Shown here piece after piece: positions 16,365-39,128 of a stretch of DNA of 64,000 bases. The notes below the pieces were generated by a model that made no database searches, was not told the origin of the DNA, and saw only the letters and a program-made list of their open reading frames with translations. The first letter of the stretch is position 1, and each line of letters opens with the position of its first letter. A program made the position numbers and the translations under genes. Location of the stretch: positions 124,001 to 188,000 of the forward strand of contig JAUIAV010000004.1 in the NCBI GenBank assembly GCA_030425195.1, given 5' to 3'. This DNA comes from Gammaproteobacteria bacterium. GTDB lineage: Bacteria > Pseudomonadota > Gammaproteobacteria > Pseudomonadales > Azotimanducaceae.

Positions 16365-17120
16365 ATGCGGACTTTCAGAATCGGATTCTGCCTGATTTTC
16401 TTCGGACTGGCCGGCGGTTGCGCCACCATGTCCGCGGACGAGTGCAGCCTGGCGGACTGGTATGCCGTCGGCGAGGCCGACGGCGCCGCAGGCCAGATGC
16501 CAGCCCGGGCTGACCGGCGCGCCAGTGACTGTCTGAGGCACGATATCGTGATGGACAGAGCGCGATACGATGCGGGCCGCAACGACGGCCTTGCCGGTTA
16601 CTGCGTGGCAGGAACCGGCTACCAGCTCGGCGAACGGGGCCAGAGCTACAACGGCGTCTGTGTCGATCACGATGAAGCGGCATTCCTCGACGCCTATCAG
16701 AAAGGACGCGAGCTCCATGCCTTCACCTCTGCCGTCAGCGCTGCCGGCAGCCAGCTCACGACGGCCGAGGCCAGGCATCGGGAACTGGATGGACAGCTCG
16801 AGAAGTACTGGGGCGGCTATCGGGACGAGGGCCTCAGCACGGAAGAACACAACGAAAGGGTTCTCAGGCTCTGGTCAGAACGGAAGTATCTGGCGGAGGA
16901 AGCGATTCCCTACTGGCAGGACGCGAAGGCGGCGCTCACCGTTGCCCTGAACGACTACCGCGGCAGGGTGGCTGCGCAGGATCCGAGCGTCGGAAGTCAG
17001 CTCCGTCCCCCCGAGTTCCCGGGGCCCAAACCCTGGGAAGGTCCTACCCGCGAGGACGCCCGGGCCATGCTCCAGGAAGTCTTCGGCACCCTGGCGCGAG
17101 CCAGCGGCGGTTCGAACTGA
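16365..17120 (+). CDS. DUF2799 lipoprotein
   Basis: The 251-residue protein starts with a signal segment and lipobox (FGLAGGCATM, Cys about residue 20). The region WYAVGEADGAAGQMPARA and YDAGRNDGLAGYCVAGTGY carries the repeated Gly/Asp/Ala pattern and paired Cys of the DUF2799 family. The second half is coiled-coil-like and then proline-rich. Function is unknown; it is probably in the periplasm or outer membrane. It stands alone between hemN and the minus-strand hemerythrin pair. Confidence 0.7.
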   Translation: MRTFRIGFCLIFFGLAGGCATMSADECSLADWYAVGEADGAAGQMPARADRRASDCLRHDIVMDRARYDAGRNDGLAGYCVAGTGYQLGERGQSYNGVCVDHDEAAFLDAYQKGRELHAFTSAVSAAGSQLTTAEARHRELDGQLEKYWGGYRDEGLSTEEHNERVLRLWSERKYLAEEAIPYWQDAKAALTVALNDYRGRVAAQDPSVGSQLRPPEFPGPKPWEGPTREDARAMLQEVFGTLARASGGSN

Positions 17121-17129
17121 GTCCAGGCG

Positions 17130-17348
17130 CTACCGGGAACGTATGAACTGGGTGTCCGTGGCACCTTCCACTTCGCCCAGCTCGTAAAGCAGAGCGTCAC
17201 GGGTGGCCTTGCTCCCGGCTTCCGAACGGTAGGCGGCCACACTGGCTACGATCAGCGCAAGCAGAACCTCCCCCTTATCCAGGCCTTCGGCGACGCCTGC
17301 AGATACGGCCTGCTCTATTGCTGCGTTGGCATGCTGATACTTGCTCAT
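17130..17348 (-). CDS. Hypothetical helical protein, 72 aa
   Basis: The start is ATG 17348 (MSKYQHANAAIEQAV) with GGAG upstream. It is a small, Ala-rich, helical protein without Cys or membrane segments. It follows the hemerythrin gene by 17 bp in the same direction and is probably cotranscribed with it. The family is not recognised. Confidence 0.5.
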   Translation of the reverse strand: MSKYQHANAAIEQAVSAGVAEGLDKGEVLLALIVASVAAYRSEAGSKATRDALLYELGEVEGATDTQFIRSR

Positions 17349-17365
17349 GATATCTCCGATGATCT

Positions 17366-17893
17366 TCAATCCTTCACGGAAGACCGTGACGGCTGCTCCT
17401 GTTCCGGTATGTCCGCAATACCCATCAGTGCATTCCAGTCGTCATTGTCGAACGTCTGATCTAGGAGCGGAAAGAGCTGATCTTCCTCGATTCTCATGTG
17501 GCGGCGCTGCAGCGTGATGTAGGCCGAAACATCCTCAAGGAAAGCGGCCGGATCCACAACCCGCCCTTCTCTGCCTTCCGCCACCTGATCGGACAGCTGC
17601 CCCGTCATGGAACTTAGCTCCTCGTGCTGACCGAGATTTCGGAACAGCAGATAGCGTTCGGTCGGAGTCAGGCCCTTGTTCATCAGGTGATCGAACAGTC
17701 TGTCCTCGAGCGGGTGATGGACCCGATCGGCATAGTAATCCAGAAATCCGATCAGCTCATCTAGCCCTTCCCAGTCCGGCTCGCCACTCGTCGCATCCGC
17801 CAGCTCTGAAAGCTGCTGGACTACCCCGGCGATCCTCGCGTGATCGCGGCTCAGTCGCTCCAGCAGCACGGACAGAAGGCCCGAGCCCTTCAC
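17366..17893 (-). CDS. Hemerythrin-domain (HHE) protein
   Basis: The 175-residue protein is a four-helix bundle of the HHE cation-binding family. Likely diiron ligands are His18 (SRDHARI), the HHPLEDRLF motif near residue 57, the His in LGQHEELS near 88, and QRRHMRIEEDQLFP near 130, where His and Glu give the last pair. Such proteins bind oxygen or sense iron, oxygen or nitric oxide in the cytoplasm. It is transcribed with the downstream stress protein gene direction, 9 bp from the USP stop, within a low-oxygen cluster. Confidence 0.85.
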   Translation of the reverse strand: MKGSGLLSVLLERLSRDHARIAGVVQQLSELADATSGEPDWEGLDELIGFLDYYADRVHHPLEDRLFDHLMNKGLTPTERYLLFRNLGQHEELSSMTGQLSDQVAEGREGRVVDPAAFLEDVSAYITLQRRHMRIEEDQLFPLLDQTFDNDDWNALMGIADIPEQEQPSRSSVKD

Positions 17894-17902
17894 GGTGCCT
17901 CA

Positions 17903-18355
17903 TTACTCCTCATCGAAGTTGAGCCGCACGGCCAGCACGTTGCAGCCGGCGTCGTGCAGAACCGCGTTCGCCGTGGACCCCAGCAGCATGCTGAGTCCGT
18001 GCCTGCCGTGGCTACCGATCACGATCAGGTCCGCCCGGGTGGAACGGGCCAGCTCCCGGATCTCCGGGCCGGGCGCACCGAGGATCACGTGCACGTCGTT
18101 CCTGTCGATCCCGTATTCTTCCGCCAGGTTCTCCAGCTGTTGCCTGGCCTGAGTACCGGCTTCCTCCTCGAAAGAGATGGCGCCGCTGGCAATCGGCGCC
18201 ATGTCCAGACCGCCGTAGACCTGCGTCAGCGGCTTCACCACCGTCACGAGATGGATCCGCCCTCCCGTTCTCGCGGTCACGGACCTGGCGCTGTCAAGCA
18301 CGGCGCGGGACTCGCTGGAAAGATCGACGGCAACGAGAATATTATCGTAGCTCAC
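17903..18355 (-). CDS. Universal stress protein, single domain
   Basis: The 150-residue protein begins NILVAVDLSSESRAVLD and ends with the ATP-binding glycine loop IVIGSHGRHGLSMLLGSTANAVLH (cited as GSHGRHG and GSTANAV), so it is of the ATP-binding UspA class. PLTQVYGGLDMA is shared almost exactly with the USP at 25923-26366, showing that the two are paralogues. It is divergent from the DksA-like gene across a region containing the shared 15-bp motif. Confidence 0.92.
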   Translation of the reverse strand: MSYDNILVAVDLSSESRAVLDSARSVTARTGGRIHLVTVVKPLTQVYGGLDMAPIASGAISFEEEAGTQARQQLENLAEEYGIDRNDVHVILGAPGPEIRELARSTRADLIVIGSHGRHGLSMLLGSTANAVLHDAGCNVLAVRLNFDEE

Positions 18356-18465
18356 GACATCATCATCCTGTGCTCCCTCGGGTTCTGGATATCGGAACGT
18401 CCAGACGTCTGAATTTAGGGAGAGCCGGCTGCCCGCACAATTCGTGGATGACCGCCGGGTCGTCT

Positions 18466-18480
18466 TCGGGAAACCCCTAG
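18466..18480 (+). promoter_or_regulatory. Shared 15-bp motif, copy 1
   Basis: TCGGGAAACCCCTAG occurs here and, identically, at 26499-26513. In both places exactly 55 nt separate the motif from the ATG of the plus-strand gene (18536 and 26569), and in both a USP gene lies divergently on the other side. Fixed spacing suggests an activator site upstream of matched promoters. Confidence 0.55.
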
Positions 18481-18535
18481 TGACAGGGGCCGGGCGGCGG
18501 GGGTTAATCGCCAGGAACTATCGAGGTTTTTCAGT

Positions 18536-18883
18536 ATGCTCGACATCGAAGCCGCACGCGCCGAACTGAACACACGAAAGCGGGAGCTCTCGGACAGACA
18601 GGAGCGGGTCTCCCGCCACACGCGCCACCGGGAGGACCCCTTGCCCCAGGACTTCGCAGAGCAGGCGGTGGAGCTGGAGAATGGCGAGACCCTGGTGGCG
18701 CTGGACCAGGAACTCAACCAGGAGCTGAAGAAAATCGACCGGGCGCTTGCACGGATCGAGTCAGGCGACTATCTCAACTGCGAATCCTGCGGGGAACCGA
18801 TCGGCGAAGAACGTCTTCAGGCGCTTCCGACCAGCGTTCAGTGCATCGACTGCGCCAGCGAAGCCGATCAGCAGCAGAACTGA
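18536..18883 (+). CDS. DksA/TraR-family zinc-finger protein
   Basis: The 115-residue protein has an N-terminal coiled-coil region (about residues 1-75, many Glu/Arg/Leu) and a C-terminal C4 zinc finger: CESCGEPIGEERLQALP followed by CIDC. This is the DksA/TraR/YbiI family that binds RNA polymerase through the secondary channel. It is shorter than E. coli DksA (151). In a stress island it could adjust transcription during starvation or hypoxia. The CBS gene follows after 4 bp. Confidence 0.88.
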   Translation: MLDIEAARAELNTRKRELSDRQERVSRHTRHREDPLPQDFAEQAVELENGETLVALDQELNQELKKIDRALARIESGDYLNCESCGEPIGEERLQALPTSVQCIDCASEADQQQN

Positions 18884-18887
18884 TCCC

Positions 18888-19313
18888 ATGGCCGAGCCGA
18901 AGGTCAAATCCGTGATGACGCCGTTTCCCTACTCGGTCGCCGTCGAGGCGCCGATCGGGGCTGCCAGAAAGCTGATGCTGGACAATCACGTACATCATCT
19001 TCCGGTTACCCGGAACGGAGAGCTTGCGGGCATCATCAGCGACCGGGACATCAAGCTGCTGCTCGGCCCCGAGCTCGGTTCTCCGGATCCCAGAGAGCTG
19101 ACCGTGGAGGACGCTTACATCGCCGACTGCTACGCGGTGGACATCGAAACACCGCTGGTGGAAGTGCTGGCCGCCATGGTGGAGCATCATCTGGGTGCTG
19201 CTCTGGTGACCGGTCACGGGCGTCTGGCAGGCATCTTCACCGCCATGGACGCCTGCAGGACTCTGCACGATCAGCTCCAGGAAACCTGGCATCCACCGCC
19301 CGACGCTGCCTGA
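18888..19313 (+). CDS. CBS-domain pair protein
   Basis: The start is ATG 18888, just after the DksA-like stop. The 141 residues form two CBS motifs (about 6-62 and 72-130): VKSVMTPFPYSVAVEAPIGA then GIISDRDIK, and VEDAYIADCYAVDIETPL then GIFTAMDACR. Stand-alone CBS pairs bind adenine nucleotides and act as energy sensors. The operon position between a DksA-like protein and a cytochrome c supports a stress or energy-related role. Confidence 0.88.
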   Translation: MAEPKVKSVMTPFPYSVAVEAPIGAARKLMLDNHVHHLPVTRNGELAGIISDRDIKLLLGPELGSPDPRELTVEDAYIADCYAVDIETPLVEVLAAMVEHHLGAALVTGHGRLAGIFTAMDACRTLHDQLQETWHPPPDAA

Positions 19314-19333
19314 ACGGCTGACGAGGAAGACTC

Positions 19334-19741
19334 ATGAAGGAAGTGATACCGGCCGTCGCGATCCTGCTGATCGCGCTGATGCCGCAGCCTCTGCGGGCAG
19401 AGCCCGTGGAGTACGATGGCGCGGAACTCTATGCGCTCAACTGCTCGAACTGCCACGGCATCTACGGTGAAGGAGACGGTGCCGTGACTCCGGACCTTTC
19501 CGTCGTTCTGCTCGACCTGCGCTACATGGCCGCCAGAAACGGCGGCGTCTTCCCCGCCGATTTCGTCCGGCAGATCATCGACGGCAGAGAATCACGGGCG
19601 GCACACGGTCCTGCCGGCATGCCGGTGTGGGGCGCGGAGTTCTCCCGTGGCGAAGGCACATCAGACAAAGCTCAGGAACGGGTCACCGACAAGATCGACG
19701 CGATCGTCGAGTTCCTGGCATCGCTGCAGATCATGGATTGA
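19334..19741 (+). CDS. Monohaem cytochrome c, secreted
   Basis: The 135-residue protein has a signal peptide (about residues 1-22, cleavage after LRA) and one haem site, CSNCH, near residue 38, with GIYGEGDGAVTPDL following as in class I cytochromes c. A Met in GMPVWG near residue 95 is the likely sixth ligand. It acts in the periplasm and could donate electrons to the cbb3 oxidase encoded 11 kb downstream. It follows the CBS gene by 20 bp. Confidence 0.88.
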   Translation: MKEVIPAVAILLIALMPQPLRAEPVEYDGAELYALNCSNCHGIYGEGDGAVTPDLSVVLLDLRYMAARNGGVFPADFVRQIIDGRESRAAHGPAGMPVWGAEFSRGEGTSDKAQERVTDKIDAIVEFLASLQIMD

Positions 19742-19775
19742 CAGTGACCGGGCACGCTGCCCTCCGCGTCTGTTC

Positions 19776-20681
19776 TCAGGGGTGCACCACCAGGAGGTCG
19801 GCCGGCGAACGCTCCAGGATCTTTTCCGCCGAGTTGCCGAGCAGCGTAGCACCCAGACCACGTCGGGCCGCGCTGCCCACCACCACCAGGCCGGCGCCCG
19901 TCTTGCGCACCGTCTGAGCCACCATGTGGCCCACCTTGCCTGCGGGACGGTGAATGCGGGTTCGGGCTATCCCGTACGGCTTGATGAGCGCCTCCAGGAA
20001 ATCGGCGCTCGCAGCGACCGCCTCCTTGCGGACCTTGCGCGGATCGATGACCTCCAGATCGCTGAGCACTTCCGAGTATTCGACCACGGAAACGCAGTGA
20101 AGCCGCCCGCCACGCAGCTCGGCAAACCGGGCAGCGGCATCCAGCACCTTCAGATTCAGCATCCGGTGCTTCCGATCCTCGTTTCTCAGATCGATGGTGG
20201 CAATCACGTCGGACTCCGACCGCTTCTTCTTTCTGCGGTTCTTGCCCTTCCATCCACCGACCAGGAGGAGCGGTCTGGGGCAGGTACGGATCAGGGCCCA
20301 GTCCAGCGGTGTGTGTATCAGGGTCCGGGACTTGTGCACCGATTTGATCACCAGATCCGAATTCCCTGCTGCCTGTGCCACCCAGGCGGCAATGTCGCCG
20401 GTCCAGACGACTTCGATGGAGATGGATGCAGCAGAAAGACCTTCATCACGGACGAGGTCTCTCAGCCAGGTTTCCCGCACCCGCACGATTTCCCGTTTGA
20501 TCGCCCGACGCTGACTCGCATCGAAGACGTTCTTCTGTTCCACCATGGCATGCCACACGAAAGACACCAGCTGCAGATGCATCTCCGGATGTCTGAGCAG
20601 CAGCGACTTCGCCTCGGCCAGTGCGGACTGCTCGTGTTTGGGCTTGTCCAGAATGACGAGCACGGAAGTCGGGGTTTTCAA
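19776..20681 (-). CDS. Universal stress protein, double domain (1)
   Basis: The start is TTG at 20681 with AAAGGAG upstream; no ATG is suitably placed. About 301 residues comprise two USP folds. The second ends in VVVGSAARRGLGATLLGNSAEKIL, cited by its ends, a G-rich nucleotide loop; the first lacks a clear loop and contains HTPLDWALIRTCPRPLLLV, a pattern shared with the protein at 21832-22740. This matches the UspE-type tandem arrangement. It lies 22 bp downstream of another double-domain USP gene in the same direction, so they are probably cotranscribed. Confidence 0.88.
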   Translation of the reverse strand: MKTPTSVLVILDKPKHEQSALAEAKSLLLRHPEMHLQLVSFVWHAMVEQKNVFDASQRRAIKREIVRVRETWLRDLVRDEGLSAASISIEVVWTGDIAAWVAQAAGNSDLVIKSVHKSRTLIHTPLDWALIRTCPRPLLLVGGWKGKNRRKKKRSESDVIATIDLRNEDRKHRMLNLKVLDAAARFAELRGGRLHCVSVVEYSEVLSDLEVIDPRKVRKEAVAASADFLEALIKPYGIARTRIHRPAGKVGHMVAQTVRKTGAGLVVVGSAARRGLGATLLGNSAEKILERSPADLLVVHP

Positions 20682-20703
20682 TCGGTTCTCCTTTCGGGAT
20701 GTT

Positions 20704-21633
20704 TCAGGGTGCGTGGACGGTAACCACGTCACAGTCGACGGCGTGAAGAATACGCTCTGACGTATTGCCGAGCAAAACACCACGGACCCCTTCCCTTGCA
20801 TGGGTGCCCACCACGAGCAGGGCGGCCTCGGCATCTTCCACCAGGGCCGCCAGCACGGGAGCGGTCGGGCCTTCTTCCAGATGCAGGTGCCGGTAGCTCA
20901 CCCCTGCAGCATCCGTCAGCTCACTCGTGCGCGACCGGGCGTCTTCCTCCACCGCAGCCTTGATCTCCGCGTAGCTCTTGATGGCACCCAGCTCGCCGAC
21001 CCAGGGCTCGAACAGCGGATAGGCGTAGACGATATCGAGATCACCGCCCAGCAGATCTGCCAGCATCCGGGCCTCACTCAGCGCTTTGCGATTCAACCCC
21101 TCATGGCTGTCGTCGAACACGTCCAGCGAACAGACCACGACCGGCTCCTTCGGCCATGCGGCAGCCTTGACCAGCATCACGGGCACGGTCGCATGCCTCA
21201 GAAGATTCCATTCATCCGGGGTGCGCAGCACGCTGACGACCCGGTCACCGACACCCGCCTGCTCGCTCGTGGCCCGCAGAATCAGATCGGCTCCGCTGTT
21301 TTCCGCCGCATGCAGAACCGCTTCCCAGGTCCGGGGATTCCAGAGCGTCGCGGATTCCATCTTTCTGAAACGGCCCCGCCAGTTCTCCAGCTCGTCCTCG
21401 AGCTCAGTCTCGGCCGCCTCGAGAATGAACGTCTTGAGCCTGGCCGAGTCTTCGACCGCAGACGTGCTGATGTCCGCCACTCCCTCGTAGATCACGTGCA
21501 CCACGTGAACCTGGGTGTCGGTTCCGGCGATCCTCAGCGCCTTCTCCATCAGGTAGGGCACCGAAAGGGCATCGTCCACGACAACCAGGAGGTTGTTGAT
21601 TCCGGCTCCGCGAGCCGCTGAGTTATCCACCAT
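20704..21633 (-). CDS. Universal stress protein, double domain (2)
   Basis: ATG 21633 is chosen because GGAGG lies 7 nt upstream. The roughly 309-residue protein has an N-terminal USP domain beginning NNLLVVVDDALSV and a second domain ending LLVVGTHAREGVRGVLLGNTSERIL, cited by its ends, with the nucleotide-binding loop. The junction carries LLRHATVPVMLVKA, the usual end of a USP fold. It is divergent from a third double-domain USP gene, with about 200 bp between starts. Confidence 0.88.
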   Translation of the reverse strand: MVDNSAARGAGINNLLVVVDDALSVPYLMEKALRIAGTDTQVHVVHVIYEGVADISTSAVEDSARLKTFILEAAETELEDELENWRGRFRKMESATLWNPRTWEAVLHAAENSGADLILRATSEQAGVGDRVVSVLRTPDEWNLLRHATVPVMLVKAAAWPKEPVVVCSLDVFDDSHEGLNRKALSEARMLADLLGGDLDIVYAYPLFEPWVGELGAIKSYAEIKAAVEEDARSRTSELTDAAGVSYRHLHLEEGPTAPVLAALVEDAEAALLVVGTHAREGVRGVLLGNTSERILHAVDCDVVTVHAP

Positions 21634-21831
21634 CACCAGGCCTCCAGCTTACAGGGTGTTTCCGGCTAAGCTTAGGGACTGGTGAACAGAGGCCAATCCG
21701 TAGTTTTCCAGCCGGGTTTCGGAATGTACTTACCGGGAAGGTACCATGACGGTTCATGCATTCGGGCAGAATGACGGGAAGCCGGCACATCTGCGGGAGC
21801 GCCGGCATGAAGCGAAACCAGAGAGGATCCG

Positions 21832-22740
21832 ATGAGCAAGAAGCCGGTTTTCAAAAAGGTACTGATCGCCAACGACAGGCTCGATGGCCTGGATCTCGCC
21901 CTGCCCAAGGCCGCGATGATCGAGCACTACAGCGGGGCCGCCGTGGAGGTCCTCGGTGTGGTCTACGACACCATCGCGGAGGAGCCGGATACCATTCTGC
22001 CTGCGGCCGAACGCGCGAACCTCATCGAAGGACTGAAAGCGGCGGAGCGGAACGGACTGAAACGTCTGATAGCGCCCTACCAGGATAAGGTCGCCGACAT
22101 CAGCGCCCGGGTGCTGTGGGAGAAGAACCCGGCCAGCGGCATCCTGAGTCAGCTGGATGGCGTGGATTTTCTGATCAAACCCATCTCCAGACACCAGGCC
22201 CTGCTCGACCGGCTGCACGCTCCGCTGGACTGGGCACTCACCCGATCCGCCCCCTGCCCGGTGCTCATTTCCAAGAAAGCCTGGCCTCAGCCGAATCTGG
22301 TGCTGGCGGCACTGGACGCGGGAGATGAGTCCCATCAGACGCTGAATCGGGCCATTCTGGATACTGCCGCCAGCATGTCCCGCATTCTGGGCTGCGATCT
22401 GCAGGTCGTCTGCGCCTATCCGAGCCTCGGCCAGTCCGTGAACGATCTGCAGGTGGCCATGGACTACGACGGCATCAAGGCGGACATGCGGGAAACGCGC
22501 AGCAGGCTGATCGCGGCACTCACCAGAGAGCTGGAGGCGCCGGTGAGCGAGGTGCACCTGCTCGAGGGACATGCCCGGGATACCATTCCGGCACTTGCCA
22601 ACGAGATGAATGCGGTCCTCACGGTCCTCGGCACGGCGGCCCGCCGCGGGCTTTCCCAGCTGATTCTCGGGAATACGGCCGAAGCCATCATCGGCTCCCT
22701 GGAAGGAGACCTGGTCACCGTCAGGGAACCGGGCAGCTGA
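21832..22740 (+). CDS. Universal stress protein, double domain (3)
   Basis: ATG 21832 follows GAGAGG. The 302 residues form two USP domains: the first contains HAPLDWALTRSAPCPVLI, resembling the protein at 19776-20681, and the second ends VLGTAARRGLSQLILGNTAEAII, cited by its ends. Among its paralogues it is the only tandem USP on the plus strand. It is convergent with the slipin gene; 8 bp separate the stops. Confidence 0.9.
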   Translation: MSKKPVFKKVLIANDRLDGLDLALPKAAMIEHYSGAAVEVLGVVYDTIAEEPDTILPAAERANLIEGLKAAERNGLKRLIAPYQDKVADISARVLWEKNPASGILSQLDGVDFLIKPISRHQALLDRLHAPLDWALTRSAPCPVLISKKAWPQPNLVLAALDAGDESHQTLNRAILDTAASMSRILGCDLQVVCAYPSLGQSVNDLQVAMDYDGIKADMRETRSRLIAALTRELEAPVSEVHLLEGHARDTIPALANEMNAVLTVLGTAARRGLSQLILGNTAEAIIGSLEGDLVTVREPGS

Positions 22741-22748: not shown

Positions 22749-23534
22749 TCAGCCTCCGGACTGCCCGTCCGGGCCGTCTGCTGAGGAAGACTCCAGAATC
22801 CGCTGCATGGTACCAATGAGGGACACCGGCAACGGAAAAACAATGGTCGAGCTCTTCTCCCCTGCAATCTCCGTGAGCGTCTGCAGATACCTCAGCTGCA
22901 TGGCTTCCGGCTGCCGGGCAAGAGACTCGGCAGCTTCCACCAGCTTCTGAGCCGCCTGCTCCTCGCCGTCCGCATGGATGATCTTGGCCCGTCGTTCCCG
23001 TTCGGCTTCCGCCTGCCGGGCAATGGCTCTGATCATGCTCTCGTCGATGTCGACGTGCTTGATCTCCACGTTGGCCACCTTGATGCCCCATTGATCCGTC
23101 TGATTGTCGAGGATCGTCTGGACGTCGGAGTTCAGCCGTTCCCGTTCGGCCAGGAGCTCGTCGAGCTCGTGCTGGCCCAGCACCGAGCGGAGAGTGGTCT
23201 GGGCCAGCTGCCCGGTGGCCTCCATGTAGTTCTCCACGTTGATGATGGCCCGTTCCGGGTCCACGACGCGGAAGTAGAGCACGGCATTCACCTTCACGGA
23301 GACGTTGTCCCGGGTGATGAGATCCTGGCTGGGGATGTCCAGAACCAGCGTCCTGAGATCGACCCGGACCATCTGCTGGATGATGGGAATGATGATCACC
23401 AGACCGGGCCCCTTCACCTTGTAGAAGCGGCCCAGCATGAACACCACGCCGCGCTCGTACTCGCGCAGCACCCGGAACGCGCTGATCAGCAGGCCGCCGA
23501 CCAGCGTGATGATGATGAGTGTGAAGATCTCCAT
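22749..23534 (-). CDS. Slipin (SPFH/stomatin-like membrane protein)
   Basis: ATG 23534 with GGGAGAC upstream is preferred to the longer frame. The 261-residue protein has one N-terminal membrane segment (about 3-22), then [14 protein letters not shown], the SPFH start, [16 protein letters not shown], and a C-terminal helical region with [17 protein letters not shown]. It matches bacterial stomatin/slipin. It forms membrane oligomers and is coded with NfeD, whose gene ends 1 bp before its start, the classic partner pair. Confidence 0.93.
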
Positions 23535-24915: not shown

Positions 24916-25452
24916 CTACTCACAGGGCGTGGTCAGGCCGACGAACATGTCGTCGTACGCCTGACGGATGATGAGCACGGCACGTTCATCGTGGAAAGTC
25001 TCTCCGCCGGAAATGGCGTGCGACCGGTACATGGCGCCTGTCCAGATGATCTGCTCCGTGCGCTGATCGATCACATCCACCTCGAGATGGGTGACGAAGC
25101 GGTTGGTCGTGCCCGTCTGGACCGGCTCACCCATGGGATCGCCCTGCGGGCGTGGGGGATTCCGATCGATGAGATAGAAGGTGTTGATCACCCCCACATC
25201 CGCCTCGTCCGGATTCTCCGCCTCCGAGAGTCCCTGGGCGGCCAGCGCGCCCTGCGCAGCGGATTCGATGACACCTTCGATGAATCCGGGCACCTCCACG
25301 AAGGAGAGCGAATAGGTGGAGAAAGGCTCCGCCGCGCCATGACAGGCATGAGGCACGTAGAGATCCATCTCCCCGGACGACGCGCAACCTGCGAGCACAA
25401 CGGCCAGCAGGATGGCCGCCATCGCAGCACCAATACGCTTCACCATGCTCAT
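24916..25452 (-). CDS. DUF4136-like lipoprotein
   Basis: ATG at 25452 overlaps the upstream USP stop in ATGA; another ATG two codons later is possible. A lipobox (VVLAGCASS) gives a lipid-anchored product of about 178 residues. The pattern of a Tyr/Phe-rich opening, IESAAQGALAAQGL and a late WTGAMYRSHA strand resembles the DUF4136 family of outer-membrane-associated lipoproteins. Function is unknown. The overlap implies coupled translation with the stress protein. Confidence 0.6.
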   Translation of the reverse strand: MSMVKRIGAAMAAILLAVVLAGCASSGEMDLYVPHACHGAAEPFSTYSLSFVEVPGFIEGVIESAAQGALAAQGLSEAENPDEADVGVINTFYLIDRNPPRPQGDPMGEPVQTGTTNRFVTHLEVDVIDQRTEQIIWTGAMYRSHAISGGETFHDERAVLIIRQAYDDMFVGLTTPCE

Positions 25453-26513: not shown

Positions 26514-26568
26514 GTTGGCGCCTGCTACACTCTGTCACCATAGATTCAGCTCAGGTGGATATTCAAGG

Positions 26569-31973: not shown

Positions 31974-32587
31974 AGCATGAAGTACTGGAAAAGAATGTCG
32001 GCCTGATGATGGCGTTCATCCTGGTCGCCGTCAGCTTCGGCGGGATGGTCCAGATCTTCCCGCTGCTCTTCGAAGGCGAGCTGTCCAAACCCATCGAGAC
32101 GCTGAAGCCGCTGACGGCCGTGCAGCTCGAGGGCCGGGACATCTACATCCGGGAGGGCTGCGCGGTGTGCCATACGCAGATGGTCCGACCTCTGCAGCAC
32201 GAGACCGCCCGCTACGGCCACTACTCCGTGGCGGGCGAAGACGCCTATGAGCATCCGTTTCTCTGGGGCTCCAAGCGAACCGGACCGGATCTGGCCCGGG
32301 TCGGCGGCCGCTACAGCGATGCCTGGCACGTGGCCCACCTGATGAACCCGCGCAGTGTGGTCCCCGTCTCCAACATGCCCGCCTACCCGTGGCTGTTCGA
32401 GAACGAGCTCGACGGGGAGGATACGGCCGCCAAGATGAAGACGCTCAGAATTCTCGGCGTGCCTTACACGGACGCGGATGTGGAAGGCGCCCAGGCAGCC
32501 GTGCAGGGCACCACGGAAGCCCAGGCGCTGATCGCCTATCTGCAGAGCCTCGGGCAGGACATGAAAGGCTTTGGAGGCGCCCGATGA
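31970..32587 (+). CDS. ccoO: cbb3 cytochrome c oxidase subunit II (monohaem)
   Basis: 205 residues with one N-terminal membrane anchor (about 8-30) and one haem c site, CAVCH, in the [15 protein letters not shown] motif that is diagnostic of CcoO. Sequences [16 protein letters not shown] and SNMPAYPWL follow, the latter with the axial Met. It transfers electrons from CcoP to CcoN in the periplasm. Both ends overlap neighbouring genes by 4 bp. Confidence 0.97.
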
Positions 32588-32739
32588 ACGCGACGCTGTT
32601 CTCTCTGATCGCCGTCACGGTGGGATTCGCGGCCCTGATCGCCTGGGTCTACTGGCCATCACGCAAGAACCGGCTGGAGGCACTCGGTGAGATCCCGCTG
32701 GATTCCGATTCGGACGTAAAGAAGGAAGCAAACCAATGA
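32584..32739 (+). CDS. ccoQ: cbb3 oxidase subunit IV
   Basis: 51 residues from ATG 32584: one membrane segment (about 5-24, [20 protein letters not shown]), then a basic RKNRLEAL and an acidic tail. The size, position and WxYxPSRKxR pattern are those of CcoQ, a stabilising subunit without cofactors. It overlaps ccoO and ccoP by ATGA on both sides. Confidence 0.93.
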
Positions 32740-33605
32740 GTAGCGCGTGGAGCTGGTTCGTCATCGTCGGCACTCTGGGCAGCCTGATCGTTTTCGCCGT
32801 GCTGCTGTTTGCGAATCGCCGCACGTCCGGTGGCGAGGATACGGGTCACGATTACGACGGCATCAAGGAGCTGGATAACCCCCTGCCGATGTGGTGGGTG
32901 GGCATGTTCGTGCTGACCATCGTCTACGCCATCGGCTACCTGGTCTGGTACCCGGGCCTCGGCAACGTCCAGGGTACGGCTGGCTGGACGTCGCTCGGCC
33001 AGTGGCAGGCGGAAGTCGACCGTCACGACGAGCGGTTCGCGCCGATCTACGCCAGGCTGGCTGCCATGAGTCCGGAGGAGCTGGCTTCCGATCGGGTCGC
33101 GCAGCAGGTCGGCCGGCGCCTGTTCCTCAACCACTGCTCCACCTGCCACGGTGTCACCGCCCAGGGCGGGTTCGGTTTCCCCAATCTCACCGATGGCGAG
33201 TGGATATGGGACAGCGGCTTCGACAAGGTGAAGCATGCCGTGCTGAACGGCCGCAACGGCATCATGCCCCCCTGGGGTGCAGCGCTCGGCGACCAGGGCG
33301 TTGCCGACGTCACGCAGTACACCCTGTCGCTGGCAGGCCGTGAGCATGACGCGGAAGCCGCCCAGCGCGGTCAGGCGCAGTACAACACGCTCTGTGTCGC
33401 CTGCCACGGCGCCGATGGCAGCGGCAACCCGCTTCTGGGCGCGCCGAATCTGACCAACGACATCTGGCTCTACGGCGGCAGCGCGGATGAGATCGCGTTC
33501 ACGATCAAGAACGGAAGGAACGGCAACATGCCTTCCTTCGCCGACGTGCTGGATGAGCAGAAAGCACACATCCTCGCTGGTTATGTGACCAGCCTCAGCC
33601 AGTAA
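32736..33605 (+). CDS. ccoP: cbb3 cytochrome c oxidase subunit III (dihaem)
   Basis: 289 residues with two N-terminal membrane segments (about 5-27 and 52-72; DGIKELDNPLPMWW lies between, typical of CcoP) and two cytochrome c domains: CSTCH (about 132-136) and CVACH (about 224-228), with Met ligands in NGIMPPWG and NGNMPSF. It takes electrons from soluble cytochromes or from the bc1 complex. The gene ends the structural part of the operon; ccoG starts 28 bp on. Confidence 0.97.
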   Translation: MSSAWSWFVIVGTLGSLIVFAVLLFANRRTSGGEDTGHDYDGIKELDNPLPMWWVGMFVLTIVYAIGYLVWYPGLGNVQGTAGWTSLGQWQAEVDRHDERFAPIYARLAAMSPEELASDRVAQQVGRRLFLNHCSTCHGVTAQGGFGFPNLTDGEWIWDSGFDKVKHAVLNGRNGIMPPWGAALGDQGVADVTQYTLSLAGREHDAEAAQRGQAQYNTLCVACHGADGSGNPLLGAPNLTNDIWLYGGSADEIAFTIKNGRNGNMPSFADVLDEQKAHILAGYVTSLSQ

Positions 33606-33633: not shown

Positions 33634-35046
33634 GTGAACGGTCCGGAAGTCACAGAAGAACCGGTCCGGCTCGAAGGGTTCGGGCCGAAAGACCTCTACC
33701 AGAAGCGCGAGAAGATCTTCACGCGCTTCGTCGGCGGATTCTTTCAGCGTCTGCGTTTTTTCACCGGCTGGCCCCTGCTCATGGGCTACTTTCTGCTGCC
33801 ATGGATGAACTGGGATGGTCGCCAGGCGGTGCTTTTCGACCTGCCCGCCCGGCAGTTTCACATCTTCACGGTGACCTTCTATCCCCAGGATTTCTGGCTG
33901 CTGGGCTGGATGCTGATCATTGCCGCCTTCGGGCTGTTCACCATCACCACCCTGGTGGGACGGCTGTGGTGCGGATACACCTGCCCGCAGACGGTCTGGA
34001 CCGCCATCTTCATGTGGATCGAGCAGGTCGCCGAAGGTCCCCGCCATGCCCGGATCCGTCTGGAGAACGCACCCTGGTCGTTTGAGAAACTCCGCAAGCG
34101 GACGATGAAGCACGGCATGTGGCTCGGTGTGGCCGCGTTGACGGGCATCACCTTCGTCGGCTACTTCACGCCGATCCGGGAGCTGGTGCCCGATCTCGCC
34201 GGCCTGGAAGCGAACGGCTGGGCCGTGTTCTGGAGTCTTTTCTTCACCGGCGCCACCTACACGAATGCCGGCTGGATGCGCGAGCAGGTGTGCATCTACA
34301 TGTGCCCGTACGCACGTTTCCAGTCCGCCATGTTCGACAAGGACACACTGGTGGTCTCCTACGATCCCGCACGGGGCGAGCCGAGAGGTCCGAGAAAGCG
34401 GAAAGCCGAGGATACGGAGCTCGGCGACTGCGTGGACTGTCAGCTGTGCGTTCAGGTGTGCCCCGTGGGCATCGACATCCGGGACGGCCTCCAGTACGAG
34501 TGCATTGGCTGCGCACACTGTATCGATGCCTGCAATCAGGTGATGGACAAGATGGACTACCCGCAGGGGCTGATCCGCTACACCACCGAGCACGAGCTTT
34601 CAGGCGGGAAAACCCACTGGCTGCGTCCGCGGGCCATCGGCTATGCGGTGGTTCTGCTCGTCATGATGACGGCCTTCAGCATCGCCCTCTTCTCCCGGAA
34701 CGCCTTCGAAGTGGACGTGCTCCGTGAACGGGGCGCGCTGTCCGGGATCAACGCTGCCGGCGAGGTGACCAACCAGTACAGCCTGAAGATCCTGAACAAG
34801 ACCCAGCGACCCCAGTCCTACACCATGCGCGTGATATCCGACCTTCCGATCAGCGTCGGACGCAGCGAACGGCTCGAACGCGGGCTGTCCAGCCTGCCGG
34901 GAGAGGTGATCGATCTCCCGCTGACCCTGAAGGTTGCCCGGGAAGCCGTCAGTCTGCCCAGCGTGCCGGTAACCGTTGAGCTCTGTGAAACGGGCACCAG
35001 TTACTGCGACACCGAAGAGACCACCTTCTTCGGACCCATGCAATGA
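33634..35046 (+). CDS. ccoG: cbb3 assembly protein CcoG (FixG/RdxA)
   Basis: GTG start; 470 residues. About five membrane segments, a Cys-rich GRLWCGYTCPQTVW and two bacterial ferredoxin motifs, DCVDCQLCVQVCP and ECIGCAHCIDACN, for two [4Fe-4S] clusters, then a periplasmic Ig-like C-terminal domain. CcoG is a cupric reductase that prepares Cu(I) for CcoI and CcoN. Its stop overlaps the next small gene (ATGA). Confidence 0.96.
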   Translation: MNGPEVTEEPVRLEGFGPKDLYQKREKIFTRFVGGFFQRLRFFTGWPLLMGYFLLPWMNWDGRQAVLFDLPARQFHIFTVTFYPQDFWLLGWMLIIAAFGLFTITTLVGRLWCGYTCPQTVWTAIFMWIEQVAEGPRHARIRLENAPWSFEKLRKRTMKHGMWLGVAALTGITFVGYFTPIRELVPDLAGLEANGWAVFWSLFFTGATYTNAGWMREQVCIYMCPYARFQSAMFDKDTLVVSYDPARGEPRGPRKRKAEDTELGDCVDCQLCVQVCPVGIDIRDGLQYECIGCAHCIDACNQVMDKMDYPQGLIRYTTEHELSGGKTHWLRPRAIGYAVVLLVMMTAFSIALFSRNAFEVDVLRERGALSGINAAGEVTNQYSLKILNKTQRPQSYTMRVISDLPISVGRSERLERGLSSLPGEVIDLPLTLKVAREAVSLPSVPVTVELCETGTSYCDTEETTFFGPMQ

Positions 35047-35210
35047 TGAAGCGTCTGCCCATCATCCTGGTGATCGCCATTCCAGCTGCCGCGGTGGTCA
35101 TGGGGCTCATCACCATGTATCTGGCCTTTCAGGGTCCGGATCAGGAGATCCGCATGGACGGAGAGCCGCTCTCCAAGACCAGCTGGCGCACGCCGGAGCC
35201 TCAGCAGTGA
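35043..35210 (+). CDS. ccoH: Minimal CcoH (FixH) protein, 55 aa
   Basis: ATG 35043 overlaps the ccoG stop; the frame ends at TGA 35208-35210. It has one membrane segment (about 5-29, IILVIAIPAAAVVMGLITMYLA) followed by QGPDQEIRMDGEPLSKTSW. Position between ccoG and ccoI, and the pattern P-x3-VV-x6-YLA-x3-PD, identify the N-terminal anchor of CcoH. Usual CcoH proteins have about 150 or more residues with a periplasmic beta domain, which is absent here. It should associate with the oxidase in the membrane. Confidence 0.75.
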   Translation: MMKRLPIILVIAIPAAAVVMGLITMYLAFQGPDQEIRMDGEPLSKTSWRTPEPQQ

Positions 35211-37357
35211 GCGTCTGCACCATCAGTGTCAGTGACATGCACTGCGCTGCCTGTGCCGGGAAGATACGACGGGCGCTCACCACACTGGACGGCATCGAAG
35301 CCACCCACATCAACCCGGTGCGCCGCCAGGTGCTGGTGGAACACGGCAGAGCGACGGACCCGCTGCAGATTCTGAACACCATCGAGTCCGCGGGCTTCAC
35401 GCCGACGCTGGCAGGTCTGGACGATCACGACGAGCGTCAGCGGGACCTGCTGAAGCGCCTCGGCATCGCCGGCCTCGCCATGATGCAGGTCATGATGGCC
35501 GCCATCGCGCTGTATGCGGGCAGTTTCGACGGCATCGAACCCGCCTACGAACGGCTTCTGCAGTTCACCAGCCTGCTGTTCACCATTCCCGTCGTCTGTT
35601 ACTCCGCGGTACCCTTTTTCACCAGCGCGCTGTCGAGCATTCGCGGCGGCGGTCTGAACATGGACGTGCCCATAGCGCTGGCCATCTCCATCGCCTTCTC
35701 CGTGAGCCTGCACGCCACGCTGACGGGCGGCAGTGACGTGTTTTACGACTCCGTGGTGATGTTCACCTTTCTGCTGCTGGGTGCCCGTTACATCGACAAC
35801 CGGCTCCAGCGCCGTTTCGATCTCACCGGACAGCTTCTGTCGGCGCTGCCCAGTACCGCGCTGCGTATCGAAGCCGGGGAACGGCAGCCGGTTCCTGTCG
35901 CAGAACTGGCCCCGGGAGATCAGATCTGGGTGCCGGAAGGTGCGCAGATCCCCGTGGACGGCACGCTCGATGGGAACACGGCCCTGCTGGACGAGGCCGT
36001 GCTCACGGGAGAATCCGACTGGGTGGAAAAGCAGACGGCTGAAACCGTCTACGCCGGAACTCTGAATCGGGGCGCGGGATTCGGGTTGACCGCCACCCGC
36101 ACGGTGGATGAGTCGCGGATTGCCGATATTGCTCAGCTCGCGGAACAGGCCGAAGTCGGCCAGGCCCGGATCACCCGGATCACGGACCGGATTGCCGGTA
36201 TCTTCATTCCTTCGGTGCTCGCCCTCGCCGCTCTGACTTTCGTGATCTGGCAGTTCGTGGACCCATCCCGAGCGCTCATGGCCATGCTCACCGTGCTGGT
36301 GGTCAGCTGTCCCTGCGCATTGTCGCTGGCCACGCCCGCGGCGCTCACGGCCGCCATGACACGCCTGCGGCAGCTCGGCGTGGTGCTGACGAACAGCGAG
36401 GCGCTAGAACGCGTACTCGATGTCAATCGGGTCTACATCGACAAGACGGGCACCCTCACCACCAGCCGGCCCGCGATTCTCCACACCGAGGTGCTCGATT
36501 CGGGAATGAACCAGGCGGAGTGCCTGACCCTGGCAACGGCCCTGCAGCGCTACTCCAGTCACCCGTACGCGACCGCGTTCGAACACGCCGGAGCGGATTC
36601 AGGGCCGGGGTGGACTGTCGAAGACGTGGAAACCGTGACCGGCGGCGGCGTACGCGGATGGATCTCGGCAGACGCCGGCGGCCCGTCGGCGGAATTCCGG
36701 ATCGGCAGCGCGTCCTTTGCCGGTGCCTCCGGCGAGGCGGACGACCGGTCCGTCTATCTCGCCCGTGCAGGCTGGGTCATCGCCCGGTTCGATCTTTCCA
36801 ATCAGGTGAGGCCTGACGCCATGGCGTCGGTGACTGCCCTGAAAAACCTGGGGATCGCGCCCGTCATGCTGTCCGGCGATTCCCCGGAACGCTGCGCGGA
36901 GACCGCAGCCGTCCTCGGGATCGATTTCCTGGCAAGACAGACTCCCGAAGCCAAGCTCGCAGCCATCCATGCCGATCAGCAGCGCGGCGCCCGGGTGCTC
37001 ATGCTGGGCGACGGCATCAATGACGTGCCGGTGCTCGCCGGCGCCGACGTTTCCGCCGCCGTGGTGGAAGCCAGCGACCTGGTGAAGTCCCGATCTGACG
37101 TCCTGCTGCTCAGCAGGCGGCTGGCACCGCTCACGGATCTGTTCCGGGTAGCTCGGCAGACCCGCTCGATCACCCTGCAGAATCTGATCTGGGCGGCTGC
37201 CTACAACCTGACCGCGATTCCCGTGGCAGCGCTCGGCCTCATGCCCCCCTGGCTCGCGGCCCTGGGAATGGCGGCGAGCTCGACCCTGGTGATGCTGAAC
37301 GCGACGCGCCTGCTGTCGGTCGCACCGACGGAGGCAGCTCCGGGGATGGAGGCCTGA
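35207..37357 (+). CDS. ccoI: Copper-transporting P-type ATPase CcoI
   Basis: GTG 35207 overlaps the ccoH stop (GTGA). 716 residues: an N-terminal metal-binding domain with SDMHCAACAGKIRRAL, eight membrane segments, the actuator loop LTGES, the intramembrane SCPCALSLATP, DKTGTLT with the phosphorylated Asp, and GDGINDVPVL. This is the CopA2/FixI type that exports Cu(I) for insertion into CcoN. A histidine-rich N-terminal extension is lacking. Confidence 0.96.
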   Translation: MSVCTISVSDMHCAACAGKIRRALTTLDGIEATHINPVRRQVLVEHGRATDPLQILNTIESAGFTPTLAGLDDHDERQRDLLKRLGIAGLAMMQVMMAAIALYAGSFDGIEPAYERLLQFTSLLFTIPVVCYSAVPFFTSALSSIRGGGLNMDVPIALAISIAFSVSLHATLTGGSDVFYDSVVMFTFLLLGARYIDNRLQRRFDLTGQLLSALPSTALRIEAGERQPVPVAELAPGDQIWVPEGAQIPVDGTLDGNTALLDEAVLTGESDWVEKQTAETVYAGTLNRGAGFGLTATRTVDESRIADIAQLAEQAEVGQARITRITDRIAGIFIPSVLALAALTFVIWQFVDPSRALMAMLTVLVVSCPCALSLATPAALTAAMTRLRQLGVVLTNSEALERVLDVNRVYIDKTGTLTTSRPAILHTEVLDSGMNQAECLTLATALQRYSSHPYATAFEHAGADSGPGWTVEDVETVTGGGVRGWISADAGGPSAEFRIGSASFAGASGEADDRSVYLARAGWVIARFDLSNQVRPDAMASVTALKNLGIAPVMLSGDSPERCAETAAVLGIDFLARQTPEAKLAAIHADQQRGARVLMLGDGINDVPVLAGADVSAAVVEASDLVKSRSDVLLLSRRLAPLTDLFRVARQTRSITLQNLIWAAAYNLTAIPVAALGLMPPWLAALGMAASSTLVMLNATRLLSVAPTEAAPGMEA

Positions 37358-37358
37358 C

Positions 37359-37511
37359 ATGGAAATACTCGTGGTGCTGATTCCGGTATCCGTGGTGCTG
37401 ATCGGCATCGCCGCGGCGATTTTCCTGTGGGCGGTGAACAACGACCAATTCGAACAACTGGACAAACACGGTTTCGATATTTTTGAGGAAGATTCGGGAG
37501 ATGAGAAATGA
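37359..37511 (+). CDS. ccoS: cbb3 maturation protein CcoS
   Basis: 50 residues from ATG 37359, one base after the ccoI stop. A single membrane segment (about 3-25) is followed by WAVNNDQFEQLDKHG, the conserved CcoS signature, and an acidic tail. CcoS is needed to insert haem b and copper into CcoN. Its stop overlaps the next start (ATGA). Confidence 0.95.
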   Translation: MEILVVLIPVSVVLIGIAAAIFLWAVNNDQFEQLDKHGFDIFEEDSGDEK

Positions 37512-38110
37512 ATAGTGTAGTCAACGGCTTTCTGGTGGTGTTCAACCCCAAGCAGGGCTGGGCACGGATCGCTGAGGGCCGTCCGGGGCTCGTGCAGACC
37601 CTGGCTCTACACACCATCCCCTTTGCGCTGATCCCTGCGGTGTGCTGGTATTTCGGGGTGACGACACAGGGCTGGACCATCATGGGAGACCCGGTGAAGC
37701 TCACGCCGGAAAGCGCGCTGCCCATGTGCGTACTGTTCTATCTCGCCATGGTGTTCGGCGTGATCTTCCTCGGCTACATGGTCAGCTGGATGGCCGCCAC
37801 CTATGACACCGAAGGCGGTGTGGCAAAGGGTGTGGCCCTCATCAGCTATACGGCCAGTCCGTTCTTCCTGGCAGGTATCCTGGGCCTTTACCCGGTGCTC
37901 TGGCTGGACATCATGATCGGCACCATCGTCGCCTGCTACTGCATCTATCTGCTTTTCCTCGGCACAGGACCGGTGATGGAAGTTCCCCCGGAACGATCGT
38001 TTCTCTATGCGGCCGCCGTGTTCGCCGTAGCGCTCGTGGCCTTCGTGGCGCTGCTCGGCGCGACGGTCGTGCTGTGGGATCTGGGACCGACGCCCGAGTA
38101 CACCTACTGA
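37508..38110 (+). CDS. Yip1-family membrane protein
   Basis: 200 residues with five membrane segments; FNPKQGWARIAEGRPGL at the start is the typical entry of the Yip1/DUF1282 family. No cofactor ligands are visible. Function in bacteria is unclear. The ATGA overlap with ccoS ties it to the oxidase operon, which suggests a part in membrane assembly or in the b/c module encoded next. Confidence 0.75.
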   Translation: MNSVVNGFLVVFNPKQGWARIAEGRPGLVQTLALHTIPFALIPAVCWYFGVTTQGWTIMGDPVKLTPESALPMCVLFYLAMVFGVIFLGYMVSWMAATYDTEGGVAKGVALISYTASPFFLAGILGLYPVLWLDIMIGTIVACYCIYLLFLGTGPVMEVPPERSFLYAAAVFAVALVAFVALLGATVVLWDLGPTPEYTY

Positions 38111-38790
38111 GGACACTCCTGGCGCTGACCGTCGTCGTGCTGGGCGTCTGCCTGGCCGCCGGTGGTCTGCCGAGCGGCGGCTTCTGGTGGGACCTGCTTG
38201 CCGGTCTCGGCTTCTGCGCTTTCGTGCTCGTCGCCTTCATGGGCTGGGATTCCGAGTCCCCCGCGAGAAATCCCCGCCTGCGTCAGCATCGCAACCTGGC
38301 CCTTCTGGCCACCGTCATCGCCGCCGCCCACGGGCTGGGCTATCTGGTCATCGACACTACCGTCATCGAGCACCTCAAGCCCGCTGCACCCGTCTACATG
38401 CTCTGCGGCCTGGCCGCCCTGCTGCTGCTCGCAGGCACCACCTGGTCGTCCCTGCCGGGTCCTCGTCAGCGCACCTATGCCGGGTTCGCCGCTTTCAGAG
38501 GCTGGCACCGGGGTCTGTACGTCGCCCTGCTGGCGGCGACCGGCTGGCACGCGTTCGGAACGGAGTTCTCACTCGGCCGTCCCTGGCAGGCGGTCCTGCT
38601 CTTCGCGCTCCTGGTGGGCGTACCGCTGCTGGCCTATGCGGCCAGACGTTTCGACAGGCCACCGCCTCTCGACCGGGGACCCGGCACTGAGGCGGCGGCG
38701 GACCTCCACCCGCTGCTGTCAGGACTGGCCATGGTGGCGCTTTCGTTCGGTTTCGCGGGCCTCAAGCTGGCGGCATGCGACGCCTGCTGA
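38074..38790 (+). CDS. Ferric-reductase-like b-type cytochrome (four His)
   Basis: From GTG 38074, overlapping the previous gene by 37 bp, the protein has 238 residues; a CTG at 38107 or later start is possible. It has about seven membrane segments. His72 and His86 flank one helix, and His145 and His159 flank another, each pair 14 residues apart, the spacing that holds two stacked haem b groups in ferric-reductase-like proteins. No flavin or NAD domain is present. It overlaps the tetrahaem cytochrome gene by 16 bp; the two probably form one complex moving electrons across the membrane. Confidence 0.6.
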   Translation: MGSGTDARVHLLRTLLALTVVVLGVCLAAGGLPSGGFWWDLLAGLGFCAFVLVAFMGWDSESPARNPRLRQHRNLALLATVIAAAHGLGYLVIDTTVIEHLKPAAPVYMLCGLAALLLLAGTTWSSLPGPRQRTYAGFAAFRGWHRGLYVALLAATGWHAFGTEFSLGRPWQAVLLFALLVGVPLLAYAARRFDRPPPLDRGPGTEAAADLHPLLSGLAMVALSFGFAGLKLAACDAC

Positions 38791-39128
38791 TCCTTCCGCT
38801 GCTGATCACGGCAGTCGCAGCCGCGGGTTATCTGGGGCACACCTGGCAGCAGAGCCTGCGCGCGGAACGGCCCATGCTGGAGGTCACCTTCGCCCATATC
38901 GATCATCGCGCCGTCAACTGCGTCGAGTGTCATCACAACTTCGTCGACGATACCGGGCAGGGACTCTGCTTCGACTGTCACAAGACGGACCCGGCGGTGA
39001 ACGCCCTGATCGAAGTGCAGTTTCACGACCTCTGCCGCGGCTGCCACCTGGATCATCAGCGAAGCGGGGAAGACGGCGGTCCCGTCCGGCAGTGTATTGA
39101 CTGTCACACGGCGGACGACGCACCCTGA
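38775..39128 (+). CDS. Membrane-anchored tetrahaem cytochrome c
   Basis: 117 residues: an N-terminal anchor or uncleaved signal (about 3-22) and four haem sites, CVECH (49-53), CFDCH (65-69), CRGCH (87-91) and CIDCH (107-111). Extra His at 41, 44, 54, 84 and 94 could give bis-His ligation, as in class III (c3/c7) cytochromes. The size and low-potential type of haem site suggest electron exchange with a periplasmic partner. It is the last gene in the oxidase run; 23 bp separate it from the dehydrogenase. Confidence 0.85.
   Translation: MRRLLILPLLITAVAAAGYLGHTWQQSLRAERPMLEVTFAHIDHRAVNCVECHHNFVDDTGQGLCFDCHKTDPAVNALIEVQFHDLCRGCHLDHQRSGEDGGPVRQCIDCHTADDAP

Follow-up and report, generated by a model that had tools for sequence, protein, structure and literature searches.

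Does an oxygen sensor that is encoded beside a cbb3 oxidase also control the stress proteins around it? The question is raised by a 64,000-nucleotide stretch of a gammaproteobacterial genome of the Azotimanducaceae (contig JAUIAV010000004.1, positions 124,001 to 188,000; hereafter the window), in which universal stress protein (USP) genes lie together with genes for FixL, FixJ, a globin, a hemerythrin and the oxidase. An earlier note on this DNA had proposed that FixJ controls the stress proteins as well as the oxidase. Judging from the sequences compared here, this is quite likely a low-oxygen island governed by FixLJ, with FixJ acting directly on the USP promoters, on genes for the small heat-shock protein HSP20 and, in relatives, on the cbb3 genes. 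The gene content of the island, its conserved linkage and the placement of a shared promoter motif can be read directly from the DNA.

A shared motif in the USP promoters

Intergenic regions sharing TTCGGGAAACCCCTAG-like elements were first spotted by eye. Unsupervised expectation maximization on 53 regions upstream of USP, globin, ccoN, hemerythrin and DksA genes, taken from 18 genomes that did not include the window's own (11 of the regions came from congeners), gave the motif acTACGTAGTTTCCGaag with a log-likelihood of 180.9, compared with 55.6-68.1 for 10 shuffled sets run from the same number of starts. This motif agrees with the published in-vitro FixJ consensus, the classes of which are GTAGTTTCCC and GTAMGTAG; the fixK site of S. 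meliloti is TAAGTAATTTCCCTTA (PMC4999443). When the 64-kb window was scanned with the matrix, its three divergent USP promoters gave the top three scores; the fourth best lies at the start of a gene for an FNR-type regulator:

18464..18481, minus strand: candidate FixJ site ACTAGGGGTTTCCCGAAG between UspA1 and DksA, best in the window, score 19.1
26497..26514, minus strand: candidate FixJ site CCTAGGGGTTTCCCGAGG between Usp4 and the putative Usp5-globin-fixLJ operon, score 15.2
21717..21734, minus strand: candidate FixJ site GGTAAGTACATTCCGAAA between Usp2a and Usp2c, score 14.2
14094..14111, minus strand: candidate FixJ site at the 5' end of the FNR gene, score 12.6 (13.3 in genome G002)

Sites were present in the corresponding regions of G002, G003 and G069 for the first of these, of G002, G003, G017 and G069 for the second, and of G002, G003 and G017 for the third, which is adjoined in the window by GTAGTTTTCC at 21700. 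The top score among 30 Markov null windows was 15.2, which the best site exceeds and the second about equals.

The motif was also found at HSP20 genes that are not linked to the island. Analysis of 30 HSP20 loci from 12 FixJ-bearing relatives showed that nine upstream regions scored at least 12, and that at least one such region was present in seven of the 12 genomes, compared with one of 14 FixJ-lacking genomes with HSP20. The five best of these sites (G192, G003, G002, G208 and G028) scored 18.4-20.4 at -76 to -120, all in the same orientation, the one in G028 (L118) falling in a training region. The window's own genome has tandem HSP20 genes (L110, 465-1401, on contig C37) with a strong FixJ-type site of 21.3; they are divergent from an amino acid permease gene, with a cytochrome c gene after it.

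Among FixJ-bearing genomes, 24 of 33 USP regions scored at least 12 when the motif was rebuilt leaving one genome out, and under leave-one-out the same was true of ccoN in 4 of 10, hemerythrin in 2 of 5 and DksA in 2 of 3; ccoN sites of 15-19 were found in G003, G008, G017, G031 and G071. No convincing site of its own was found upstream of the globin gene (0 of 7, leave-one-out), as expected where the globin genes lie inside the Usp5 operon. In 21 FixJ-lacking genomes of the family, a score of at least 12 was reached by one of 29 usable USP upstream regions (one of 30 loci was dropped at a contig end) and by one of 19 HSP20 upstream regions. Nineteen of these 21 genomes had no FixJ match at 1e-35; in G009 and G035 a FixJ-like protein of 43-45% identity was matched. 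The choice of regions confounds the USP comparison: the FixJ-positive ones were taken near fixLJ and the FixJ-negative ones anywhere in the genome, so the contrast is supportive and not clean.

The motif could instead belong to another regulator of the NarL/FixJ family with a similar DNA-binding helix, of the StyR kind, and not to the FixJ of the window. The best solved match to the window FixJ is indeed the StyR-type 1yio, slightly ahead of FixJ 5xso, and two genomes that gave no FixJ match at 1e-35 have one strong site each: 17.5 at -230 before a USP gene in G012 (L178, C78), and 15.3 at -124 before an HSP20 gene in G014 (L236, C21). These two may be read by another regulator or may be remnants. 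The helix of the window protein, ISERTVEIHRSQVM, is closer in alignments to that of FixJ (ISPRTIEVYRANVM) than to that of StyR (IAEVTVKVHRHNIM), the motif agrees with the FixJ consensus, and it is rare where FixJ is lacking. Regions around fixLJ in other families of the class (20 of 25 FixJ places fetched) bear on the point as well. A gene of the fixK/FNR type was detected in 5 of the 20, in five genomes from four families, and in every one this gene is preceded, at roughly 20 to 60 bases from its extrapolated start, by the highest-scoring site of the region (23.2, 20.0, 19.3, 18.1 and 13.0). The motif is linked to FixJ in this way, because fixK is the canonical FixJ target, described as the only known conserved one (PMC4999443). 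Reading by a different regulator therefore seems improbable. One further region of another family (L199) has a site of 15.6 between USP and DksA genes beside fixJ.

A second alternative places the USP genes under an FNR/Anr-type regulator, with FixLJ as a bystander. USPs are under such control in Pseudomonas, and a gene of this type (14097) lies inside the conserved block. A published table for Bradyrhizobium gives FixK2 boxes for USP and Hsp20 genes (PMC9104804). FNR boxes do occur in the window's own genome (14 matches at 9 places, compared with 2 in the reversed control), and one of them stands at the head of the block:

11404..11417, plus strand: FNR-type box TTGATCCGGGTCAA before the AurF-PAS-ferredoxin-FNR-HemN gene row

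In G003, TTGATCCTGGTCAA stands upstream of AurF. Elsewhere in the window's own genome a perfect box was seen at C34:122578 (L242), before what, judged by eye, may be an OmpW-type porin gene. However, no box with at most one mismatch was found in any of 58 candidate USP, globin, ccoN, hemerythrin and DksA promoters from the window's genome and its relatives, where the distribution resembled that in shuffles; the FixJ-type motif occupies the USP promoters instead. An FNR/Anr-type protein was accordingly rejected as direct regulator of the USPs, and this arrangement as a whole is unlikely, if somewhat less so than that of a StyR-like regulator.

Several observations weigh against direct control by FixJ. 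The number of pattern matches does not stand out from reversed controls. A strict pattern matched 10 places in the window's own 4.63-Mb genome and 16 in its reversed control; three of the 10 were island USP promoters and one was the tandem HSP20 promoter; predicted reading frames contain the other six, of which L113 is close to a probable gene start. With a second pattern, 12 genomes yielded 23 matches, compared with 14 in the reversed sequences, and 7 of the 23 were in USP or HSP20 promoters. These strict patterns had been put together by eye, and the list behind the first one contained sites from the genome itself, but not the HSP20 site. In the wider pattern searches, most of the 16 matches away from USP and HSP20 promoters fell in coding sequence or failed to convince. 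A sequence-only model of the motif, which is short at 18 bases, found no match in the window's own genome. The third site of the window scores under the best null score, so that it is notable by its place and not by its score. No site was found before the USP genes of the same genome that lie outside the island (5 of 6 loci read; best 5.3-6.9), 21 of the 30 HSP20 upstream regions in FixJ-bearing genomes lack one, and the strong sites in G012 and G014, like the confounding of the USP comparison, belong on this side too. For the oxidase, several relatives have no strong site before ccoN, the region upstream of ccoN in the window reaches 0.7, and that upstream of the receiver gene 6.2 where G002 has 12.2. 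The claim that FixJ controls the oxidase is supported by sites in relatives, and by a USP gene directly before ccoN in three of them, and not by the weak equivalent (6.2) in the window's genome.

Taken together, the motif, its placement, its rarity in FixJ-lacking genomes and the lack of a canonical FNR box at the USP genes suggest that FixJ probably activates the USP and HSP20 genes directly, and the cbb3 genes in relatives. The proposal that stress proteins are under FixJ control gains sequence support in this way.

Gene content and conserved linkage

Pfam searches of the window proteins confirmed the gene list almost entirely, including the hemerythrin, DksA-like, CBS, cytochrome c, slipin, NfeD, FixL, FixJ and receiver genes that had been named earlier. 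The island had been drawn from 16365 to 39128, a left limit too far to the right, as the conserved block begins near 11417 with AurF-like, triple-PAS, ferredoxin-like, FNR-type regulator and HemN genes. The DUF2799 gene at 16365 has no match in the regions of relatives compared, and no Rfam families or tRNAs were reported within the window. The genes of the block are:

11417..12556, plus strand: AurF-like diiron protein, first gene of the block (Pfam AurF; 85-91% identity in two congeners)
12579..13730, plus strand: triple-PAS protein, no kinase domain matched, kept in two congeners
13745..14065, plus strand: ferredoxin-like protein, named by eye, kept in two congeners
14097..14867, plus strand: FNR/Anr-type regulator (Pfam cNMP_binding and HTH_Crp_2; motif CALCPTRQLC, CxxCx5C)
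14879..16252, plus strand: HemN-type oxygen-independent coproporphyrinogen dehydrogenase (Radical_SAM and HemN_C; putative start)
17130..17345, minus strand: 71-amino-acid conserved protein beside hemerythrin, 48-73% identity in four relatives
17366..17893, minus strand: hemerythrin (Pfam Hemerythrin, 1.5e-15)
17903..18355, minus strand: USP 1, UspA1 (Pfam Usp, 1.8e-30)
18536..18883, plus strand: DksA-like protein (Pfam zf-dskA_traR, DksA/TraR zinc finger)
18885..19313, plus strand: CBS-pair protein (Pfam CBS; putative start)
19334..19741, plus strand: cytochrome c (Pfam)
19776..20690, minus strand: long USP, Usp2b (Pfam Usp on second domain; first domain and start putative)
20704..21636, minus strand: tandem USP, Usp2a (Pfam Usp, two stretches)
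21832..22740, plus strand: tandem USP, Usp2c (Pfam Usp, two stretches)
22749..23525, minus strand: slipin, SPFH (Pfam Band_7; putative start)
23536..24906, minus strand: NfeD (Pfam)
24916..25449, minus strand: DUF4136-like lipoprotein, below the Pfam cut-off
25449..25910, minus strand: USP 3 (Pfam)
25923..26366, minus strand: USP 4 (Pfam)
26569..27000, plus strand: USP 5, first gene of the putative fixLJ operon (Pfam; putative start)
26997..27347, plus strand: two-helix protein, modelled as a two-helix hairpin (mean pLDDT 85.5)
27402..27836, plus strand: single-domain globin of PA3967 type, a relative of the solved globin PA3967/1tu9
27840..29267, plus strand: FixL, haem-type PAS and histidine kinase (Pfam, solved FixL PAS)
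29260..29877, plus strand: FixJ response regulator, REC and GerE (Pfam, solved FixJ; putative start)
29957..30340, plus strand: stand-alone receiver, REC (Pfam)
30525..31973, plus strand: ccoN (COX1; 94% identity in G002)
31970..32587, plus strand: ccoO (FixO)
32584..32739, plus strand: ccoQ (FixQ)
32736..33605, plus strand: ccoP (FixP_N)
33634..35046, plus strand: ccoG (Fer4_18 and FixG_C)
35045..37357, plus strand: ccoI-type copper P-type ATPase (Pfam/NCBIfam; putative start)
37359..37511, plus strand: ccoS (FixS)
37508..38110, plus strand: Yip1-domain membrane protein, which occurs with cco in relatives
38074..38790, plus strand: ferric-reductase-like membrane protein (Ferric_reduct)
38775..39128, plus strand: class-III-like multihaem cytochrome c (Pfam)

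The count of seven USP genes with about ten domains held: between 17.9 and 27.0 kb there are four single-domain and three long genes, the tenth, N-terminal domain being deduced from the length of 19776-20834. Nine of the 17 Usp-domain matches in the 4.63-Mb genome lie inside the island. The cbb3 set of the window consists of ccoN, O, Q, P, G, I and S; of the ccoNOQP-GHIS series noted earlier, a separate ccoH was not found, and 38074-38790, the candidate for it, was rejected for its Ferric_reduct match. The reading of 26997-27347 as phasin-like found no Pfam or NCBIfam match and the label was dropped for lack of family confirmation, a two-helix hairpin being predicted instead. The globin call, under the Pfam cut-offs, is upheld by clear relatedness to PA3967/1tu9 (E 3.9e-19).

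At the left end, the AurF-like gene heads the block behind its FNR box, with the PAS, ferredoxin-like, FNR and HemN genes as neighbours. The FNR-type protein scored 138.5 bits with NCBIfam Fnr, below the cut-off of 228, and the true start codon of its gene may be downstream of the given GTG. The 71-amino-acid protein had no Pfam or NCBIfam match; its SKY start and RSR end are invariant across five aligned genomes.

The PAS domain of the window FixL aligns with the solved Bradyrhizobium FixL PAS (E 1.8e-25), and its SRHDGY and GRELVG match SRHDSY and GRIVTG of that protein; no GAF domain was matched in the sensor by Pfam, which reported PAS domains instead. The haem PAS domain of FixL works through a proximal histidine and an oxygen-contacting arginine. 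Both were kept in 28 of 30 aligned FixL rows of the family, the exceptions being G007 and G154, and from these residues we infer that FixL senses oxygen through a haem PAS domain. FixJ matched Pfam Response_reg and GerE, and solved FixJ 5xso at E 1.6e-48. Both proteins missed the NCBIfam equivalog cut-offs (FixL 326.2 bits against 850, FixJ 243.3 against 255), a further point against the favoured reading; they are homologues outside the strict curated rhizobial equivalogs.

The PA3967-type globin gene lies directly upstream of fixL in the window and in ten other regions (L014, L015, L017, L019, L021, L022/L023, L029, L064, L067 and L074), and the globin may act together with the oxygen sensor. 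The globin match in G018 (L029) is split in two, perhaps by a frameshift. The one named relative among the contigs scanned is a Marinobacter changyiensis globin, which has no fixLJ nearby.

Linkage in close relatives had been named as a check on the proposal, and two of the three congeners retain nearly the whole block. It has the same order in G002 and G003; in G002 no CBS gene was matched and the contig ends inside ccoP, in G003 UspA1 and HemN were not matched in the row, and in G001, which is 74% complete, neither globin nor FixJ was matched. FixJ orthologues (E ≤ 1e-60) were found in 32 of 200 genomes of the family, the window's own included. Apart from the window's, 31 of 32 FixJ places were compared as regions, one in G021 being left out; 16 of them have USP genes near fixLJ, 10 have cco genes and 11 have the globin, which in ten is directly before fixL. 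Many of these regions are cut by contig ends, so the counts are lower bounds. Of the 20 fixLJ regions of other families, 4 had USP genes and 5 had cco genes in the vicinity. A same-strand USP gene is the immediate neighbour before ccoN in G208, G025 and G028 (gaps of 61, 102 and 52 bases), and USP and cbb3 may be on one shared transcript there (L077, L078 and L086).

Such clustering might reflect shared ancestry or co-inheritance without common control, the promoter elements being of a general kind. The block shared by the two congeners means that part of the conservation is simple descent. Against this, gene order and orientation vary between genera (G208, G025, G028, G031 and G195) while the linkage is kept, and the same motif stands at unlinked HSP20 genes, so that clustering without common control is very improbable.

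A proposed oxygen-responsive circuit

Binding by FixJ, the direction of control and the physiology are inferred in what follows. FixL would sense oxygen by its haem PAS domain and, as oxygen falls, would phosphorylate FixJ, as known FixLJ biochemistry suggests. FixJ would then bind TACGTAGTTTCCG-type sites in the divergent USP promoters and activate the USPs, hemerythrin and DksA/CBS genes, the tandem HSP20 genes elsewhere on the chromosome, and its own operon of Usp5, the two-helix protein, globin, fixL and fixJ. Since this last promoter is among the putative targets, the system would amplify itself. In relatives FixJ may activate cbb3 either from a site of its own or as the gene after a USP. 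The moderate FixJ site of the FNR gene and the FNR box before AurF suggest a second tier. Such a circuit would probably serve to combine high-affinity respiration with a USP and small heat-shock survival programme when oxygen is limiting.

If this is true, USPs and small heat-shock proteins, and not the oxidase alone, are first-line outputs of oxygen sensing. A broader version, in which FixJ of this family directly commands an entire regulon for survival under hypoxia (USPs, HSP20, hemerythrin, DksA and cbb3) that in rhizobia is partly run by FixK, in a DosR-like arrangement around a different haem sensor with the globin as partner for oxygen or nitric oxide, is offered tentatively and is the less likely form.

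Comparison with known systems

The nearest known island is the lxa locus of Burkholderia cenocepacia (BCAM0275-BCAM0323), likewise a USP-rich low-oxygen island, with six USPs, an alpha-crystallin and a cytochrome c (PMC6127331, PMC9733578); its comparison with DosR has already been published (PMC6127331). It differs in that its FixLJ homologues are encoded elsewhere, at BCAL2210/2211 (PMC6127331), that sequenced Burkholderia are described as having no classical cbb3 oxidase (PMC3759415), and that the available portions of the lxa reports give no direct FixJ control (PMC6127331, PMC9733578). In a plasmid collection searched for lxa-like islands, only distant UspE-like matches were seen among the matches listed (25 of 70). 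Burkholderia dolosa provides a low-oxygen FixLJ outside the alphaproteobacteria, which activates fixK; in the available portions no USP and oxidase island is described around it, and the phrase 'universal stress' is absent from the main text (PMC5234846).

Rhizobial FixLJ-FixK2 shares FixL, FixJ and cbb3 with the window, and reaches USP and Hsp20 genes through FixK2, those genes being listed there with FixK2 boxes (PMC9104804). In the window's genome FixJ-type sites stand at USP and HSP20 promoters. A literature search, on the partial texts it returned, found no report of direct FixJ control of USPs. What appears new here is that USP and Hsp20-type targets carry candidate FixJ-type sites, the USP promoters being without FNR or FixK boxes. 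New as well is the presence of oxygen sensor, oxidase and USPs in one island.

The earlier note had suggested a gammaproteobacterial counterpart of the DosR dormancy regulon, which holds as an analogy and not as membership: both have a haem sensor kinase, a regulator with REC and GerE domains, USPs and an alpha-crystallin HSP20. DosR/DevR and Streptomyces OsdKR likewise join a haem sensor kinase to a response regulator and control USPs and heat-shock proteins, and USP and HSP20 genes with candidate regulator sites in the window's genome resemble DosR-type targets. The sensors DosS and DosT have a GAF-type haem domain. In the window, by contrast, FixL is a PAS haem sensor, the DNA motif is different and cbb3 is included. 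The majority of Streptomyces USP genes are located close to osdKR, and the predicted targets include a hemerythrin gene (PMC5069765). The conserved DNA elements suggest that an oxygen sensor switches the USPs on directly here, as a different sensor does in tuberculosis bacteria. Programmes of USPs and alpha-crystallins driven by haem sensors may thus have arisen repeatedly (DosR, OsdR and FixJ), and comparison of the three can help to tell the role of USPs under hypoxia.

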